Part shown: in pieces, positions 8,437 to 49,062 of the stretch
How positions within the stretch are numbered: the first letter of the stretch is position 1
Layout of the letters: every line of letters begins with the position of its first letter
Assembly: GCF_006440735.1 (NCBI RefSeq)
Contig: NZ_VFUA01000022.1
Span: 1 to 64,000, forward strand
Source: Mesorhizobium sp. B2-7-1
GTDB lineage: Bacteria > Pseudomonadota > Alphaproteobacteria > Rhizobiales > Rhizobiaceae
Reading direction: 5' to 3'
DNA length: 64,000 nt
Made by a program: the position numbers and the translations under genes
Notes under the pieces: model-generated
Told to the model about the DNA's origin: nothing
Database searches by the model: none
What the model saw: the letters and a program-made list of their open reading frames with translations, nothing else

Positions 8437-8519
8437 CGTCGCCCTGCAACGGCGGCCTGTCTGCCCCGGTCGCAAAACGGACCGGCCGTCGTCCGCCCGG
8501 TCTCGGCCTTGCCCTGCAG

Positions 8520-9650
8520 TTAGGCGCGCCGCCGCGCGGATTCCGGCTTGACGCGCGCGGCGAGGAATTCCTTGACGCGGCGCCCGGGCGCGGGACCGCG
8601 CAGCGGCTTGAAACCGTCGTCGAGCTCGCCCGAAAGGTCGAGCGTGGCCCGCTGGCCGACGGCGTCGTAATTCTCCTCCAGCCAGTCGCTGGCCGCACTG
8701 CGGCCGAGATCGCGCAGATAGGCGATGAAAGCCCATTCGGCATTGACCTTGGACGAGGCGGAGAGGTCCTTGAACGCCTCGTCGGCATCGATGCGGTGCA
8801 TGCGGATGTCGCGATATTCGCCATGCGGCAGGCGCCCGGCCGCGATCAGTTCCTTGACGAAGGCGATCGAGCGGAATTCACGCAGCAGACCGGCGTTGAA
8901 GGTGATCTCGTCGATGCGGTTCTGGATCTCGTTGGCGCTCTTAGGCGTGCCTTCGCGCACCACTGGGTTGATCTGCACCAGGAGCACGTCCTCGGTCGCC
9001 GCCGTCTTGAAGAACGGATAGAGCGCCGGGTTGCCGCCATAGCCGCCGTCCCAATAGGGCACGCCCTTGATCTCGACCGCCTGGAACAGTTGCGGCAGGC
9101 AGGCCGAGGCCATCACCGTATCGAGGTCGATCTCGCCGTCGGAGAAGACGCGCAATTGCCCGGTCTCGACATTGGTCGCCGAGATGAACAGCTCCATCGA
9201 CTTGCAGGCGCGCACATTGTCGAAGTCGATCTCCTTCGCCACCACGTCGCGCAGCGGGTTGAGGCCGAGCGGATTGGCGACATAGGGCGAGAACACCCGC
9301 GACATCGTGTCGAAGAAGACGTAGCCGGGCGTGTTCTCGATCGACCAGTTGCCCCAGACGACGTCCCAGGGCATGCGCTGCACAGGGCTGAAACGGCCCT
9401 TCGAGGCCACCGCCCGCCAGAAATCGTCGAGCTTTTCTCGCGCGCCTTCCACGCCGCCCCGGACAAATCCGTCGGCCAGCGCCACCGCGTTCATGGCGCC
9501 CGCGCTGGTGCCGGACACCGCAGCGATATCGAGCCGCCCGTCCTCCAGCAGCCGGTCGAGCACGCCCCAGGAAAAGGCGCCGTGCGAGCCGCCGCCCTGG
9601 AGGGCGACGTTGATCTTCTTCTTTTCCTCCGCCTTGCCGTTCTTCGCCAT
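8520..9650 (-). CDS. Patatin-like phospholipase family protein
   Basis: This 376-residue protein has all parts of the patatin fold's Ser-Asp dyad. They are the oxyanion loop QGGGSHGAFSWG (about 18-29), the nucleophile elbow GTSAG with Ser49, and the DGG motif with Asp201. Such enzymes hydrolyse acyl esters of phospholipids or other lipids; the lack of a signal peptide suggests cytoplasmic or secreted-effector use. The start MAKNGKAEEKKKINVAL fits; the longer frame upstream has no family character. It stands alone between an AraC regulator and citrate synthase. The residues after about 330 are not a recognised domain. Confidence 0.87.
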   Translation of the reverse strand: MAKNGKAEEKKKINVALQGGGSHGAFSWGVLDRLLEDGRLDIAAVSGTSAGAMNAVALADGFVRGGVEGAREKLDDFWRAVASKGRFSPVQRMPWDVVWGNWSIENTPGYVFFDTMSRVFSPYVANPLGLNPLRDVVAKEIDFDNVRACKSMELFISATNVETGQLRVFSDGEIDLDTVMASACLPQLFQAVEIKGVPYWDGGYGGNPALYPFFKTAATEDVLLVQINPVVREGTPKSANEIQNRIDEITFNAGLLREFRSIAFVKELIAAGRLPHGEYRDIRMHRIDADEAFKDLSASSKVNAEWAFIAYLRDLGRSAASDWLEENYDAVGQRATLDLSGELDDGFKPLRGPAPGRRVKEFLAARVKPESARRRA

Positions 9651-14609: not shown

Positions 14610-15335
14610 ATGACCAAGGTAGCAATCGTCACCGGCGGATCGCGCGGCATTGGTGCTGCGATATCGGTCGCCTTGAAGAACGCCGGCTATTCGGTCGCGG
14701 CGAACTATGCCGGCAATGACGAGGCGGCGCAGAAATTCAAGGCTGAGACCGGCATCCCGGTCTACAAATGGTCCGTCGCCGACTACGAGGCCTGCGCCGC
14801 CGGCATCAAGCAGATCGAGGCCGATCTCGGTCCGGTCTCCGTGCTGGTCAACAATGCCGGCATTACCCGCGACGCCATGTTCCACAAGATGACGCCGGCG
14901 CAGTGGAGGGAAGTGGTCGACACCAACCTGTCCGGCGTCTTCAACATGACGCATCCTTTGTGGAGCGGCATGCGCGACCGCAAGTTCGGCCGCGTCATCA
15001 CCATTTCCTCGATCAACGGCCAGAAAGGCCAGGCCGGCCAGGTCAACTACTCCGCCGCCAAGGCCGGCGACATCGGCTTCAGTAAGGCTCTTGCCCAGGA
15101 AGGTGCTCGCGCGGGCATTACCGTCAACGTCATCTGCCCCGGCTATATCGCGACCGAAATGGTCAAGGCGATCGACGAGAAGGTGCTCAACGAGCGCATC
15201 ATCCCGCAGATCCCGGTCGGCCGCCTCGGCGAACCGGAAGAGATCGCGCGCTGCGTCGTCTTCCTGGCCTCCGACGAAGCCGGCTTCATCACCGGCTCGA
15301 CCATCACCGCCAATGGCGGCCAGTACTTCGCCTGA
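14610..15335 (+). CDS. phaB: Acetoacetyl-CoA reductase
   Basis: This 241-residue short-chain dehydrogenase reduces acetoacetyl-CoA to (R)-3-hydroxybutyryl-CoA with NADPH, the second PHB step. It has the cofactor motif GGSRGIG (9-15), NNAG at 81-84, the catalytic Ser in TISSING (about 134), Tyr147 and Lys151 in YSAAK, and the PhaB-typical end FITGSTITANGGQY. AAAGGGAGG precedes the ATG. It is read with phaA and is followed by a strong terminator. Confidence 0.95.
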   Translation: MTKVAIVTGGSRGIGAAISVALKNAGYSVAANYAGNDEAAQKFKAETGIPVYKWSVADYEACAAGIKQIEADLGPVSVLVNNAGITRDAMFHKMTPAQWREVVDTNLSGVFNMTHPLWSGMRDRKFGRVITISSINGQKGQAGQVNYSAAKAGDIGFSKALAQEGARAGITVNVICPGYIATEMVKAIDEKVLNERIIPQIPVGRLGEPEEIARCVVFLASDEAGFITGSTITANGGQYFA

Positions 15336-15352
15336 TACCCCAACAAGGCCAA

Positions 15353-15385
15353 GGCGGCTCCGGCAACGGAGCCGCCTTTTTGATC
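15353..15385 (+). terminator. Rho-independent terminator after phaB
   Basis: The stem GGCGGCTCCG, loop GCAA and CGGAGCCGCC are followed by TTTTT. It lies 17 bases after the phaB stop. Confidence 0.9.
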
Positions 15386-16034
15386 CGCCGGCAAGGCCGG
15401 CGCGACACCTTGCCTCAATTCGGCACGCAAAGGTTAACGGCGGTAGTCGCCCTTGTGCGTAACTCCTCCAACAAGCTGTGAATCCTCGGTGGGCAAGCTG
15501 TGGATAACACCATATCTAGGGGTGAACAAACCAGGAAACTTCGCGCATCTCTGATTCGTCGCCGATTCGTTCTGGCTTTGGCCGAAAAGTTAACGACGAA
15601 GGGCGAAAGCGTTACCCAATTCGTTAAAAGCGATTAAGAAAAGTCAACAATTTCATAACCTTGAGAGCGACCCTCAGGTCGGCCTCGATGGTTCCCCGGC
15701 AAAAGTTAACACTGACTCGGGTTCACTGGAGGCTAGGCATGAATCGGGCCAATTCCCAGATTCAGCATGTGGTGCGACTCGACGTAAAAAAATCCACATA
15801 TAGCCGTGAACAAAACCTGAATCAGAGCGAGTCAGCGATTCGTCGCTGATTCGTTCCAGACTCGTTCCAGCCGTTAACAAGCAGCCGATTTTGAACGCTC
15901 CGCCGACTCGACCTGCCCCCCAAAGGAACATTCCGCTTTCGCTTCCCGCCCGAAGTCCCTATGTGTCGCCTGTCACACGCGGCGGCATCGCCGTGCTTCA
16001 GACTACAAGCGGCAGAAACCTTATTTCCGAGCCG
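15386..16034. promoter_or_regulatory. Gene-free region dense in GANTC sites with DnaA-box-like and GTTAAC motifs
   Basis: About 650 bases without a credible gene. I count 13 GANTC (CcrM methylation) sites between 15480 and 15909, five of them within 15819-15863. A perfect DnaA box (TTATCCACA on the minus strand) is at 15499-15507. A degenerate copy lies 20 bases upstream, and a 7-of-9 match is at 15790-15798. GTTAAC occurs four times. An imperfect direct repeat of about 65 bases links 15507-15575 with 15793-15861. It is the upstream region of the helicase gene and may be a cell-cycle-controlled promoter or a replication-linked site. Confidence 0.5.
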
Positions 16035-19000
16035 ATGAACATCCAGCCGAAACATTCCCAGCCGCTGATCCTCTCGGGCCGCGACGTGACGGCCGTGCTG
16101 GGTCCTACCAACACCGGCAAGACCCATCTCGCCATCGAGCGCATGGTCGCGCATGAGACAGGCATCATCGGCCTGCCGCTGAGGCTGCTCGCCCGCGAGG
16201 TTTATGCCCGGGTCTGCGAGAAGGTCGGCGCCCACAAGGTGGCGCTGATCACCGGCGAGGAGAAGATCGTGCCTGCCGGCGCAAGATATTCGGTCTGCAC
16301 CGTCGAGGCGATGCCGCGCGAAACCGACGCCGCCTTCGTCGCCATCGACGAGGTGCAGCTCGCCGGCGATCTCGAGCGCGGCCACATCTTCACCGACCGC
16401 ATCCTGCATCTGCGCGGCCGCCAGGAGACGCTGCTTCTTGGCGCCGCCACCATGCATGGCATCCTGCAGCGCCTGCTGAAGGGCGTGTCGGTGGTGACGC
16501 GGCCGCGGCTGTCGCACCTTGCCTATGCCGGCTCGAAGAAGCTCACCCGGCTGCCGCGGCGCACGGCGATCGTCGCCTTCTCCGCCGACGAGGTCTACGC
16601 GATCGCCGAGCTGATCCGTCGGCAGCAGGGCGGCGCCGCCGTCGTGCTCGGCGCGCTTTCGCCGCGCACCCGCAATGCGCAGGTGGAGATCTTCCAGTCC
16701 GGCGACGTCGACTATCTCATCGCCACCGACGCCATCGGCATGGGACTGAACCTCGACCTCGACCATGTCGCCTTCGCCCAGAACCGCAAATTCGACGGTT
16801 ACCAATATCGCAACCTGACCGCTGCCGAGCTTGGCCAGATCGCCGGCCGCGCCGGCCGCCACCTGCGCGACGGCACGTTCGGCGTCACCGGCCAGGTCGA
16901 CCCGTTCGACGAGGATCTGATCGCCAAGATCGAGGGGCATGACTTCGACCCGGTGAAGGTGCTGCAATGGCGCACCGCCGATTTCGACTTTTCCAGCCTC
17001 GATGCGCTGAAGCGCTCGATCGAGACCAATGCGCCGGTCGAGGGGCTGACCCGCGCGCTGCCGGCCGTGGATGCGCAGGCGCTGGAGCATCTGTCGCGCG
17101 ACGGCGACATCCGCGCTTTGGCCTCCGGCAAGGAGCGCGTGGCGCTGCTCTGGGAAGCCTGTGCGCTGCCTGACTACCGCAAGATCGCGCCGGCCCAGCA
17201 TGCCGACCTCATCGCCTCGATCTATATGGACCTTGCGCGCCATGGCCATGTCGATGAGAATTACATGGCCGAGCAGGTGCGGCGCGCCGACACGACGGAA
17301 GGCGATATCGACACGCTGTCGCACCGGATCGCGCAGATCCGCACCTGGACTTTCGTCTCCAACCGACCGGGCTGGCTGGCCGATCAGCTACACTGGCAGG
17401 AAAAGACGCGCGAAATCGAAGACAGATTGTCGGATGCGCTGCATGAGCGGTTGACGAAACGCTTCGTAGACCGCAGGACTTCCGTCCTCATGCGGCGCCT
17501 TAGAGAAAATACCATGCCTGAAGCCGAAATCAGTCCAACCGGAACCGTCCTCGTCGAGGGCCATCATGTCGGCGAATTGCAAGGGTTCCGCTTCACCGCC
17601 GACCAAAGCGCCGGCGGCGAGGACGCCAAAGCGGTGCGCACAGCTGCCCAGAAGGCGCTCGCAGCCGAGTTCGAGGCGCGCGCCGAGCGCTTTGCCGCCT
17701 GCGCCAATGGCGACCTGGCTTTGGGCTCGGACGGCGTCCTGCGCTGGATCGGCGCGCCGATCGGCACGCTGGTCGCCGGCGACGAGGCGCTGAAGCCGCG
17801 CCTTGTCCTGCTTGCCGACGAGCAGCTGACCGGCCCGGCCCGCGACAAGGTCGCGGCGCGCGCCGAGCGTTTCGTCAATTTCCAGGTCGAACAGCTTTTG
17901 AAGCCGCTGGTCGATTTGAAGAACGCCGACCAGCTCACCGGCATCGCGCGCGGCATCGCCTTCCAACTGGTCGAGCATTTCGGCCTGATCAATCGCCGTG
18001 ACATCGCGGAGGAGATGAAGTCGCTCGACCAGGAGGGCCGCGCCGCACTTCGCCGCCTCGGCGTGCGCTTCGGCGCCTACCATGTCTTCGTGCCGGCGTT
18101 GATCAAGCCTGCGCCGGCCGGTCTGGTGACCTTGCTCTGGGCGCTGAAGAACGACGGCAAGGACAAGCCGGGCTTCGGCGACGTGGTGCATGCGCTCGCC
18201 TCCGGCCGCACCTCGGTGGTCATCGACCCGGCCTTCGACAAGACCTTCTACAAGCTCGCCGGCTATCGCAATCTCGGCCGCCGCGCCGTGCGCATCGATA
18301 TCCTCGAGCGGCTTGCCGACCTCATCCGCCCGGCGACCAACTGGAAGCCCGGCCTCGGCCAGCGTCCGGACGGCGCCTATGACGGCCATGCCTTCATGGT
18401 GACGCCACCGATGATGTCGATCCTCGGCGCCACCGCCGACGACATGGAAGAGATCCTCAAAGGTCTCGGCTATCGCGCCGAGCCGAAGCCCGCCGCCGAA
18501 GTGAAGGCGAAGCTCGAAGCCCAGGACAACGCCGCCCGCGAAGCGGCCGAGGCCAAGCTCGCCGCCGAAGAGGCGGCCCGCGCCGCGCAGGCGGCGGCTG
18601 AAGTTGCGACGACGGACACGATTGCTGAGACACCGGCCGAGGGTTCGGAGCCGGCCGCCGTTGAAGCTGTCGCCGAAGCTTCGGCTGAAGCCGTCGTGGA
18701 AGCGGCAGCCGAACCTGCCGCGGAAGAGCCGGCAGAAGTTCCGGCCGAGGTCACGGAAGAAGCTCCCGTTGTGGAGGACACTGCGGCGGTGGACACCACG
18801 GCAGCGCCCGAGTCGGCTGAAAGCGCCGACGCCCTTCCCTCCCCCTCCTCAGTGGAAGAGGTCGCGGCGCAAGGCGACGCAGGCGATAGCGCCGACCATG
18901 CAGAGAGCACTGATACCGCCGGCGCTCCCCCCGCCCCGGCGCTGCGCGCTGACCCTCCGCACGAGGGTGAAGGTAGCGAAGCCGCTGCCGGCGAAACCCC

Positions 19001-19499
19001 GACGGAGGCTGAGGAACCAAAGCCCGTACTCCTGTGGCGCCAGGCGCGTTTCGACCACCAGCGTCCGCGCCATCGCCAGGACAACCGCCGTGACAATCGC
19101 CCGCGTGGTGGACAACCCGCGCGCGACGGCCAGGCAGGCGCCGCAAGCGGCCAGCCCGGCGATCGTCCGGCCCATGAAGGCCGCCGCGAGCAACGCAGCG
19201 ACGGTGCGGGCAAGCCGCGCTTCGACCGCTCGAAATACAAGCCGAGGCCGGAGACGGGCGACCGCCGCGAGGGTGGTGAACGGCGCGAAGGCAGGCCGCA
19301 AGGCGAGCGCCCGGATCGCCACGAGGGGGCCCGCCGCGAGGGCCGGCCCGACTGGAAGGGCAACAGGCAGGACGGCAAGGCTAACCAGGGTGGCAAGCCG
19401 GCGTTCCAGGGCAAGCCGCGCGAAGAGCGCCCGCAGCGCTTCGATCCGGATTCGCCCTTCGCCAAGCTTGCCGCCTTGCGCGACCAGCTGAAGAAGTAG
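16035..19499 (+). CDS. SUV3-like ATP-dependent RNA/DNA helicase
   Basis: This 1154-residue superfamily-2 helicase resembles mitochondrial SUV3. Motif I LGPTNTGKTH is at about 22-31, motif II AIDEVQLAGD follows, and motif VI is QIAGRAGRH. A C-terminal SUV3 domain follows. From about residue 815 the protein is an Ala/Glu-rich charged stretch, and the last 150 residues are Arg/Gly/Gln/Asp-rich and probably disordered, which suits RNA binding. I chose MNIQPKHSQP; a frame open further upstream overlaps the GANTC-rich region and has no family character. It heads a helicase, S4 protein, ferredoxin, CarD series common in Rhizobiales. Confidence 0.9.
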   Translation: MNIQPKHSQPLILSGRDVTAVLGPTNTGKTHLAIERMVAHETGIIGLPLRLLAREVYARVCEKVGAHKVALITGEEKIVPAGARYSVCTVEAMPRETDAAFVAIDEVQLAGDLERGHIFTDRILHLRGRQETLLLGAATMHGILQRLLKGVSVVTRPRLSHLAYAGSKKLTRLPRRTAIVAFSADEVYAIAELIRRQQGGAAVVLGALSPRTRNAQVEIFQSGDVDYLIATDAIGMGLNLDLDHVAFAQNRKFDGYQYRNLTAAELGQIAGRAGRHLRDGTFGVTGQVDPFDEDLIAKIEGHDFDPVKVLQWRTADFDFSSLDALKRSIETNAPVEGLTRALPAVDAQALEHLSRDGDIRALASGKERVALLWEACALPDYRKIAPAQHADLIASIYMDLARHGHVDENYMAEQVRRADTTEGDIDTLSHRIAQIRTWTFVSNRPGWLADQLHWQEKTREIEDRLSDALHERLTKRFVDRRTSVLMRRLRENTMPEAEISPTGTVLVEGHHVGELQGFRFTADQSAGGEDAKAVRTAAQKALAAEFEARAERFAACANGDLALGSDGVLRWIGAPIGTLVAGDEALKPRLVLLADEQLTGPARDKVAARAERFVNFQVEQLLKPLVDLKNADQLTGIARGIAFQLVEHFGLINRRDIAEEMKSLDQEGRAALRRLGVRFGAYHVFVPALIKPAPAGLVTLLWALKNDGKDKPGFGDVVHALASGRTSVVIDPAFDKTFYKLAGYRNLGRRAVRIDILERLADLIRPATNWKPGLGQRPDGAYDGHAFMVTPPMMSILGATADDMEEILKGLGYRAEPKPAAEVKAKLEAQDNAAREAAEAKLAAEEAARAAQAAAEVATTDTIAETPAEGSEPAAVEAVAEASAEAVVEAAAEPAAEEPAEVPAEVTEEAPVVEDTAAVDTTAAPESAESADALPSPSSVEEVAAQGDAGDSADHAESTDTAGAPPAPALRADPPHEGEGSEAAAGETPTEAEEPKPVLLWRQARFDHQRPRHRQDNRRDNRPRGGQPARDGQAGAASGQPGDRPAHEGRREQRSDGAGKPRFDRSKYKPRPETGDRREGGERREGRPQGERPDRHEGARREGRPDWKGNRQDGKANQGGKPAFQGKPREERPQRFDPDSPFAKLAALRDQLKK
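18832..18976. repeat. Possible palindromic repeat inside the helicase reading frame
   Basis: The segment starts with CCCTTCCCTCCCCCTCC and ends with CCCTCCGCACGAGGGTGAAGG, the two ends being roughly inverted. The inner part CCCCGGCGCTGCGCGCTGACC also looks like rhizobial palindromic elements. It translates in frame to a linker-like stretch (PSPSSVEEVAAQGD to ALRADPPHEGEG) in the disordered tail. Assignment rests on resemblance only. Confidence 0.4.
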
Positions 19500-48420: not shown

Positions 48421-48603
48421 GTTGCGCGCGAAAACGCCGCGGCCTTGCCCGCATCTGCATATCGCGGGACTTGTCGGCATCATCGATTCGCCCACACTCC
48501 CACCACTAGGCCTATCGGTAGTTTGCAAAGATTCTTGTTGAACATATAGGGAACAAACAGTATACAAAAAGACATCGAACTTATTATCAATCAGGAGGGT
48601 CTT

Positions 48604-49062
48604 ATGTTCAGTTTGAAATTGGCGGCGTTGGCTGTGACGGCATTGGTCTCTTGGAATGCCACGCCTGCAAGCGCACTAACGATGAAGGAATGCGGCGAGA
48701 CCTATCGGACAGCCAAGGAAGGCGGCACTCTGAACGGCATGGACTGGGCCGCTTTCCGCAAGGAGAAATGCGCGACGTCCGCCGCGGAGAGTGTCAGCGC
48801 GGATACGGTCAAAACCGAGGAGCAGCAGAAAAAGGAAACCAGTGCGGCGGTCGCCCCCACTGTAGCGCCGGCGGGTGTGACATTCCCGACTATCCTCGCC
48901 GCCGAGTTCAAGACCGAAAAACCCGCGAAGGCCCGGATGAAGACCTGCCTGCAGGGTTACCACGACAACAAGGAGGCGGGTACGTTGAACGGCCTTCGCT
49001 GGATCCAGAAGGGCGGCGGTTACTACAGCCTCTGCAATGCGCGGCTGAAAGCTGAATCATAA
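48604..49062 (+). CDS. Secreted protein with two Cys-Tyr-Lys-Trp repeat modules
   Basis: This 152-residue paralogue of the preceding gene product has a signal peptide (MFSLKLAALAVTALVSWNATPASA). The mature start is LTMKEC, matching LTMAEC of its neighbour. Module one (C-GETY-RTAK-EGGTLNG) is at about 30-56 and ends FRKEKC. Module two is near 119-148 and ends WIQKGGGYYSLC. The middle is a Val/Ala/Glu linker. AGGAGGG precedes the ATG. It has its own 239-bp upstream region, so it may be regulated apart from its neighbour. Unknown function. Confidence 0.82.
   Translation: MFSLKLAALAVTALVSWNATPASALTMKECGETYRTAKEGGTLNGMDWAAFRKEKCATSAAESVSADTVKTEEQQKKETSAAVAPTVAPAGVTFPTILAAEFKTEKPAKARMKTCLQGYHDNKEAGTLNGLRWIQKGGGYYSLCNARLKAES

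Follow-up and report, generated by a model that had tools for sequence, protein, structure and literature searches.

The region considered here is the gap between a phaB-like gene, which ends at 15335, and the ATG (16035) of a SUV3-like helicase gene (16035 to 19499, plus strand), i.e., positions 15336 to 16034 of the window, the whole stretch of 64,000 nucleotides that was analysed. It belongs to a genome of 7.03 Mb in 231 contigs, whose nearest named relatives are mostly Mesorhizobium. The helicase contains the Pfam domains DEXQc_Suv3 and Helicase_C, and, among solved structures, its best matches are Suv3 helicases. Next to the phaB-like gene, a hairpin followed by a T-run (15351 to 15378, plus strand) is, judged by its sequence, the probable phaB terminator and lies outside the control element. 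No conserved small reading frame was detected in the gap, and a hidden small protein was rejected because the best of 10 frames of at least 20 aa has a similar frame in 24 of 46 relatives. In Rfam, nothing in the gap reached the gathering score, and a known RNA was rejected as well, given two weak sub-threshold matches only.

The most conspicuous feature of the gap is its content of GANTC sites. A recount confirmed the 13 sites listed in the initial annotation between 15480 and 15909 (site starts 15480 to 15905), including five within 15819 to 15863 (site starts 15819 to 15859). The chance expectation had been put at one or two sites, which was too low; dinucleotide shuffles of 15386 to 16034 gave a mean of 2.84 and a maximum of 10, but 13 is still far above chance (at least 13 in 0 of 3000 shuffles). 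Across the whole 64-kb window, 85 sites (1.33/kb) were observed vs. a mean of 326 in 20 shuffles, and a scan of its full length found at most 4 per 500 bp clear of the block. It thus appears that GANTC is generally scarce and concentrated in this gap. Similar density in many ordinary gaps, which had been named as a possible objection, was not encountered in the 800 kb sampled from G091, a relative with a complete genome: among 40 stretches of 20 kb, some of which were placed to take in hemE and the helicase locus, two 500-bp windows reached 8 sites, one in the helicase gap (11) and the other in the murB-ddlB gap (10). The latter (L140, 18951 to 19450), between murB-like and ddlB-like genes, is the sole other cluster of such density in the 800 kb sampled and precedes ddlB of the division cluster.

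The block also contains an imperfect direct repeat, which is 63 nt long (73% identical, 284 bp apart) and not 65 bp as first described. Its copies correspond to two plus-strand modules, A (15521 to 15595) and B (15805 to 15879), which match a profile built from 33 copies, window included, with E values of 2.4e-18 and 1.5e-19, respectively. Both consist of GTGAACAAA (15522 to 15530 in A, 15806 to 15814 in B), 31 bp on GATTCGTCG-N2-GATTCGTTC, and then TTAA. In module A, GATTCGTCGCCGATTCGTTC occupies 15553 to 15572, with two GANTC 11 bp apart (15553 to 15568), and GTTAAC 15589 to 15594. Module B has the extras GAATC, GAGTC, and the box GTTC-CAGACTC-GTTC (15853 to 15867, plus strand), a predicted LexA (SOS) box of the alphaproteobacterial type whose spacer includes a GANTC; the five GANTC of the module, starting at 15819, 15829, 15837, 15848, and 15859, follow each other in steps of 10, 8, 11, and 11 bp, and the GTTAAC of module B lies at 15873 to 15878. 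GTTC-N7-GTTC, which had been overlooked before, is the most constant element of the block and equals the alphaproteobacterial LexA motif given in published descriptions (PMC3323433; PMC12700426). By sequence, all 8 lexA loci examined have a box of this type at a distance of 60-160 bp from the LexA domain, including that of the own genome, where it reads GAACACAACTGGAAC (L253). Just one further perfect LexA-type box exists in the window, GAACATATAGGGAAC at 48540 to 48554, 64 bp before a frame at 48604 to 49062.

Conservation in the genus was assessed in an alignment of 47 rows, comprising the window and those 46 of 80 loci (the best 80 of 558 helicase relatives, confirmed) in which the upstream gene's end could be located with a gap shorter than 900 bp; the other 34, with a longer gap or no upstream-gene end, were inspected separately. 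The LexA-type box is present in 47 of 47 rows. The same holds for the plus-strand GAAC half-site of module B (15808 to 15811), which lies 45 bp before the box start and is followed 11 bp on by the GAAT of GAATC (15819 to 15823). In module A, the plus-strand GAAC (15524 to 15527) is kept in 46 rows and the GTTC 45 bp after it (15569-15572) in all 47. With regard to GANTC, the sites at 15759, 15819, 15837, and 15859 occur in 47 of 47 rows, 15848 in 46, and 15829 in 45; these six sites (45-47 of 47, as also for the array of module B) indicate that the core of the array is under selection. The site at 15759 is held by a plus-strand GATTCAGCAT element upstream of module B (15759 to 15768; 45/47). 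The two sites of module A are kept in 37 (15553) and 40 (15564) rows and 15776 in 35, while those at 15480, 15714, 15741, and 15905 are kept in just 10, 4, 12, and 1. These site-by-site counts show that the features first listed are a mixture of conserved and accidental parts. Loss of the sites in close relatives that retain the gap, the other objection foreseen, occurs in few cases: no module was detected close to the helicase in 3 of these 80 nearest loci, namely L105 and L110, which have none, and L098, where one module is still present 1.4 kb upstream of the helicase.

The remaining features have fared unevenly. The perfect DnaA box TGTGGATAA (15499 to 15507, minus strand) is present, the only one in the window, but is not conserved (11 of 47 rows); a DnaA titration site was rejected for this reason, and the same count speaks against an oriC, in which DnaA boxes would be conserved. 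The 7-of-9 box at 15790 to 15798 was verified and reads AAATCCACA, and a degenerate copy does exist, 22 bp and not 20 bp from the perfect box. In one genus genome (G037), the DnaA domain family matched 19 times, mostly with one identical score; these are probably copies of a mobile-element ATPase. All four GTTAAC, possible CtrA half-sites, were found again (15433 to 15438 and starting at 15589, 15705, and 15873) and are kept in 35, 38, 31, and 12 rows, and the TTAA at 15590 and 15874 in 45 and 47. The single TTAA-N6-TTAA (15624), described as near CtrA spacing, exists but is kept in 14 rows, and a full CtrA site (TTAA-N7-TTAA) does not occur in the block.

Conservation extends well beyond the genus. 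As a DNA query, module B matched 166 of 247 family genomes and 75 of 109 genera, own genus included. A total of 147 helicase upstream regions, each up to 1.1 kb, were compared (the window, L032-L111, and 66 further loci, L169-L234). Of these, 131 carry GTTC-N7-GTTC or its complement, in comparison with 1-8 for GTTC pairs at gaps of 3-6 and 8-12. In 127 of these 131 loci, a GAAC precedes the box by exactly 45 bp (next offset, 7), and in L228, L229, and L233 both half-sites are full boxes, 45 bp apart. The repeated GTGAACAAA had been considered as a DnaA-box variant, which was rejected since its fixed distance of 45 bp to the GTTC box is better explained by LexA half-sites. Among the loci with a box, GANTC at -34, -24, -16, -5, and +6 from it is found in 99, 100, 107, 106, and 104 of the 108 nearer loci and in 8, 13, 22, 7, and 9 of the 23 outer ones; other offsets average 1.27 (nearer) and 0.21 (outer), with -94 and -77 also kept. 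The best-kept GANTC outside the genus sample is therefore the plus-strand GATTC 16 bp before the box (15837 to 15841; 107/108 nearer and 22/23 outer loci).

The outer set consists of 37 loci, i.e., 17 from family genomes without a DNA match (20 of 81 were queried and 17 loci obtained) and 20 from chosen genomes of the order. A LexA-type box was detected in 23 and a cluster (at least 5 GANTC per 300 bp) in 13; 10 have the GTTC-N7-GTTC box and lack the cluster, and 14 have neither. Over all 147 loci, the cluster accompanies 118 of 131 boxes and 0 of the 16 box-less loci, which include L098, whose module lies beyond the 1.1 kb examined. As these loci are related sequences, tree-aware contrasts were needed: in 8 independent contrasts the array followed the box the same way 3.6 times on average and the opposite way 0 times (p 0.125, not significant). 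Extra modules were also observed. Six loci have three modules; a third copy upstream of the helicase was noted in L097, L093, L181, L183, and L192, and in another family (L259, G222:C1:4254412-4255484) five module-like profile matches follow each other upstream of the helicase.

In addition, the distance between the modules is constrained. In the 102 loci with two or more modules, the distance between the last two is 270-276 bp in 50 and 280-286 bp in 45; the seven deviating rows measure 241 (twice), 247, 259, 261, 292, and 525 bp, and five of them belong to one clade with extra modules. The two classes (95/102 loci) correspond to 26 or 27 turns of 10.5 bp. Because two such close length classes fit several periods in a Rayleigh test, a count on the helicase tree was used instead, on which the spacing class changes 10 times (about half of the inner branches are poorly supported). 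For pairs below 70% identity, the net difference in module spacing is 0-2 bp in 1535, 9-13 bp in 1877, 3-8 bp in 255, and larger in the rest. The module-to-ATG stretch varies freely in the same two-module loci, from 112 to 306 bp (mean gaps 70 vs. 22), and is longer elsewhere. In six pairs inspected, the large indels between modules lie in unconserved spacer and not in the 11-bp repeats. Whole-turn spacing of A and B is the pattern expected if bound proteins need to be oriented towards each other, as happens in DNA loops, and the two modules may perhaps be joined by looping.

Within the genus genomes searched, the arrangement occurs at this place only. In 11 of 11 genus genomes, the strong matches of the module profile (threshold, E below 0.04) are the two copies in this gap (22 matches), and the next-best match has an E of 0.0475. 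Other places, in G137 and G306, were rejected; their matches are weak (best E ~0.001), with no cluster of 5 GANTC per 300 bp. At L256 (G137:C1:3895903-3896671), ~177 kb from the helicase, three weak matches stand in a row with few GANTC, perhaps by chance.

The downstream partner of the array is constant. The helicase directly follows the module in 29 of the 29 best family loci, 26 of which are from other genera, and in further genera and families the array likewise stands before this SUV3-like helicase. The upstream neighbour changes, being an aquaporin gene in L080, and phaB is absent from several outer loci. The sequence CTTTCGC ... TATGTG (15936 to 15965, plus strand), which is the likely helicase core promoter, is conserved in the genus alignment; by this assignment, the LexA-type box lies ~70-110 bp upstream of the promoter and not on it.

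The position of the locus relative to the origin was also considered. hemE marks oriC in Rhizobiales, and in G091 it lies at 0.91 Mb, with the helicase locus at 1.37 Mb. GC skew in the 40 stretches of this one complete relative is positive in 17 of 20 between 0.86 and 3.9 Mb vs. 11 of 20 elsewhere, a signal that is weak overall; a stretch at 1.45 Mb is negative, but from 1.625 Mb the values are positive once more, which places the locus away from the lasting skew switch. The hemE gaps of L122, L113, and L120 (~1080-1450) contain several DnaA-box-like sequences and short GANTC runs and are likely oriC. The initial annotation had refrained from claiming a chromosome origin, and both the skew and the separate hemE box cluster make one unlikely.

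The source genome encodes a CcrM-type RAMA-domain protein, GcrA, and LexA. Both the RAMA and the GcrA family were found in 38 of 38 genomes tested, and a missing CcrM or GcrA was thus rejected as the cause of array loss. Published work places GANTC in several contexts. The form preferred by GcrA is YGAKTCK (PMC8725594; PMC7987155), which 7 of the 13 sites match. In a Rhizobiales relative, GcrA ChIP peaks are 4.4- and 4.7-fold richer in GANTC, and GcrA targets include lexA and uvrA, with lexA induction being independent of GcrA (PMC6813329). On the other hand, no GANTC enrichment was reported in cell-cycle gene promoters of Ensifer (PMC8725594), which calls for caution on single GANTC as control sites. 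It was also reported that LexA boxes of Caulobacterales can overlap GANTC; the overlap was read as incidental, and the conservation of the overlapping GANTC was ascribed to LexA occupancy (PMC7987155). A repressor, MucR, shields GANTC from CcrM (PMC5172544). None of the titles and opening abstracts listed by searches of the open-access literature describes a LexA/GANTC array before a SUV3-like helicase.

The conserved core of the array, the steady helicase with its changing upstream neighbour, and the CcrM-type and GcrA genes together make a replication-timed control region reasonable. The cell-cycle-controlled helicase promoter proposed initially retains these supports but loses the DnaA box and the CtrA-like spacing, which few relatives keep. 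We consider the chance roughly even that the block is a composite LexA/CcrM-GcrA upstream control region of the helicase gene, a reading in which damage response and replication timing would come together at this gene. In its favour are the excess of the N7 box over other gap lengths, the GAAC at 45 bp, the fixed GANTC offsets, the identity of the motif with that at lexA, the GcrA and RAMA genes together with the GcrA-preferred sites, the constant downstream helicase, the whole-turn module spacing, the confinement of the module to this gap in the genus genomes searched, and the position of the other dense GANTC gap before ddlB. Briefly, each module would combine inverted LexA-type half-sites (GAAC, and GTTC 45 bp on) with CcrM GANTC sites, module B offering a full GTTC-N7-GTTC SOS box with one GANTC in the spacer. 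In undamaged cells, LexA would most likely occupy the modules, perhaps bridging A and B; fork passage and late CcrM activity would alter the methylation of the array, where LexA, GcrA with sigma-70, and CcrM would compete. Helicase expression may then answer jointly to DNA damage and replication timing. In a stronger version, which is unlikely, LexA complexes would bridge ~273 or 284 bp under the gating of operator-embedded GANTC methylation, and each fork would reset an SOS-sensitive helicase switch. The position of the box off the likely core promoter, the variable module-to-ATG distance, and the intervening frames of L098 and L103 count against the composite region, as do the 14 of 37 outer loci without box and array, the p of 0.125 in the contrasts, and the reading of the Caulobacterales overlap as incidental.

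Some of these points would suit a chromosomal site that does not serve transcription, at which LexA and/or a reader of methylated GANTC would mark, sequester, or organise the chromosome or titrate a regulator, with the helicase being a stable neighbour. In L103 (~9069-9280) a module is kept though a cupin-type gene separates it from the helicase, and in L098 (~8465-8590) though a frame without Pfam match does so, with an aquaporin-type frame on the other side. The spacing held between modules beside a widely varying box-to-ATG distance, and the loci with three modules or with the five profile matches before the G222 helicase, are consistent with such a site too. However, the upstream neighbour is variable whereas the helicase follows in all 29 of the best family loci. 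A logic of chromosome position was rejected because the distance to hemE is inconstant (from 206 to 991 kb over 12 genus genomes, with the closer of two matches taken for G009). This explanation is rather unlikely.

LexA boxes usually overlap promoters, and -10-like AT-rich stretches adjoin GTGAACAAA in both modules, as would be expected if the modules carried promoters for non-coding or antisense RNA under LexA and GcrA control. This is improbable given the lack of a gathering-score Rfam match and of a conserved frame in the gap, and no conserved promoter was identified by eye at the modules. It is more doubtful still that the helicase promoter is purely a GcrA/CcrM cell-cycle promoter whose GTTC boxes are an extended GcrA or other recognition sequence. 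The dense methylation array, its YGAKTCK sites, and the GANTC-rich GcrA peaks of the Rhizobiales relative (PMC6813329) would agree with it; nevertheless, the box occurs without a cluster in the 10 outer loci mentioned and the cluster in 0 of the 14 without a box, and GTTC-N7-GTTC equals the motif at lexA. An origin of replication or its remnant is hardly credible, for although DnaA-box-like sequences occur together with GANTC and repABC loci are reported to be GANTC-rich too (PMC11514494), the G091 skew is positive on both sides of the locus, hemE has its own box cluster, and few relatives keep the perfect DnaA box.

CcrM methylation and the LexA response, both of them global systems in alphaproteobacteria, have mostly been studied apart. 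Selection has kept a LexA-type box and GANTC in one fixed geometry across several families and, in the genus genomes searched, at a single place before a relative of mitochondrial SUV3. The locus is thereby a compact case for whether methylation gates LexA and whether alphaproteobacterial LexA complexes loop, and it raises the question of why an RNA helicase would be controlled by damage and replication. A methylation-gated LexA bridge, if true, would be a physical junction of the DNA-damage response, replication timing, and RNA processing.

In comparison with known systems, the block and alphaproteobacterial LexA operators have the exact GTTC-N7-GTTC motif in common. Ordinary operators occur singly and at the promoter, whereas here inverted half-site pairs 45 bp apart are arranged in two modules that precede the likely core promoter and are interleaved with GANTC. 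In lac, ara, and gal, paired operators stand in helical phase, and the whole-turn distance suggests that a similar loop may form here; no helically phased operator pair for alphaproteobacterial LexA came up in searches of the open-access literature. The GcrA/CcrM promoters of Caulobacter (mipZ, podJ, and ftsZ) likewise have methylatable upstream GANTC, several of the YGAKTCK type, but those described have one to a few sites (PMC3667746), in contrast to 13 here, in 10-11 bp steps and with LexA boxes. At hypomethylated GANTC promoters shielded by MucR, the bound repressor can keep CcrM away (PMC5172544), which provides a model for LexA at this locus, although the repressor there is MucR and shielding by LexA is a prediction. 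Finally, ruvC and imuA of Caulobacterales also have a conserved GTTC-N7-GTTC overlapping GANTC, which was described as easily arising and with no regulatory effect (PMC7987155), whereas here the overlap belongs to a fixed array with a set geometry at a single locus.
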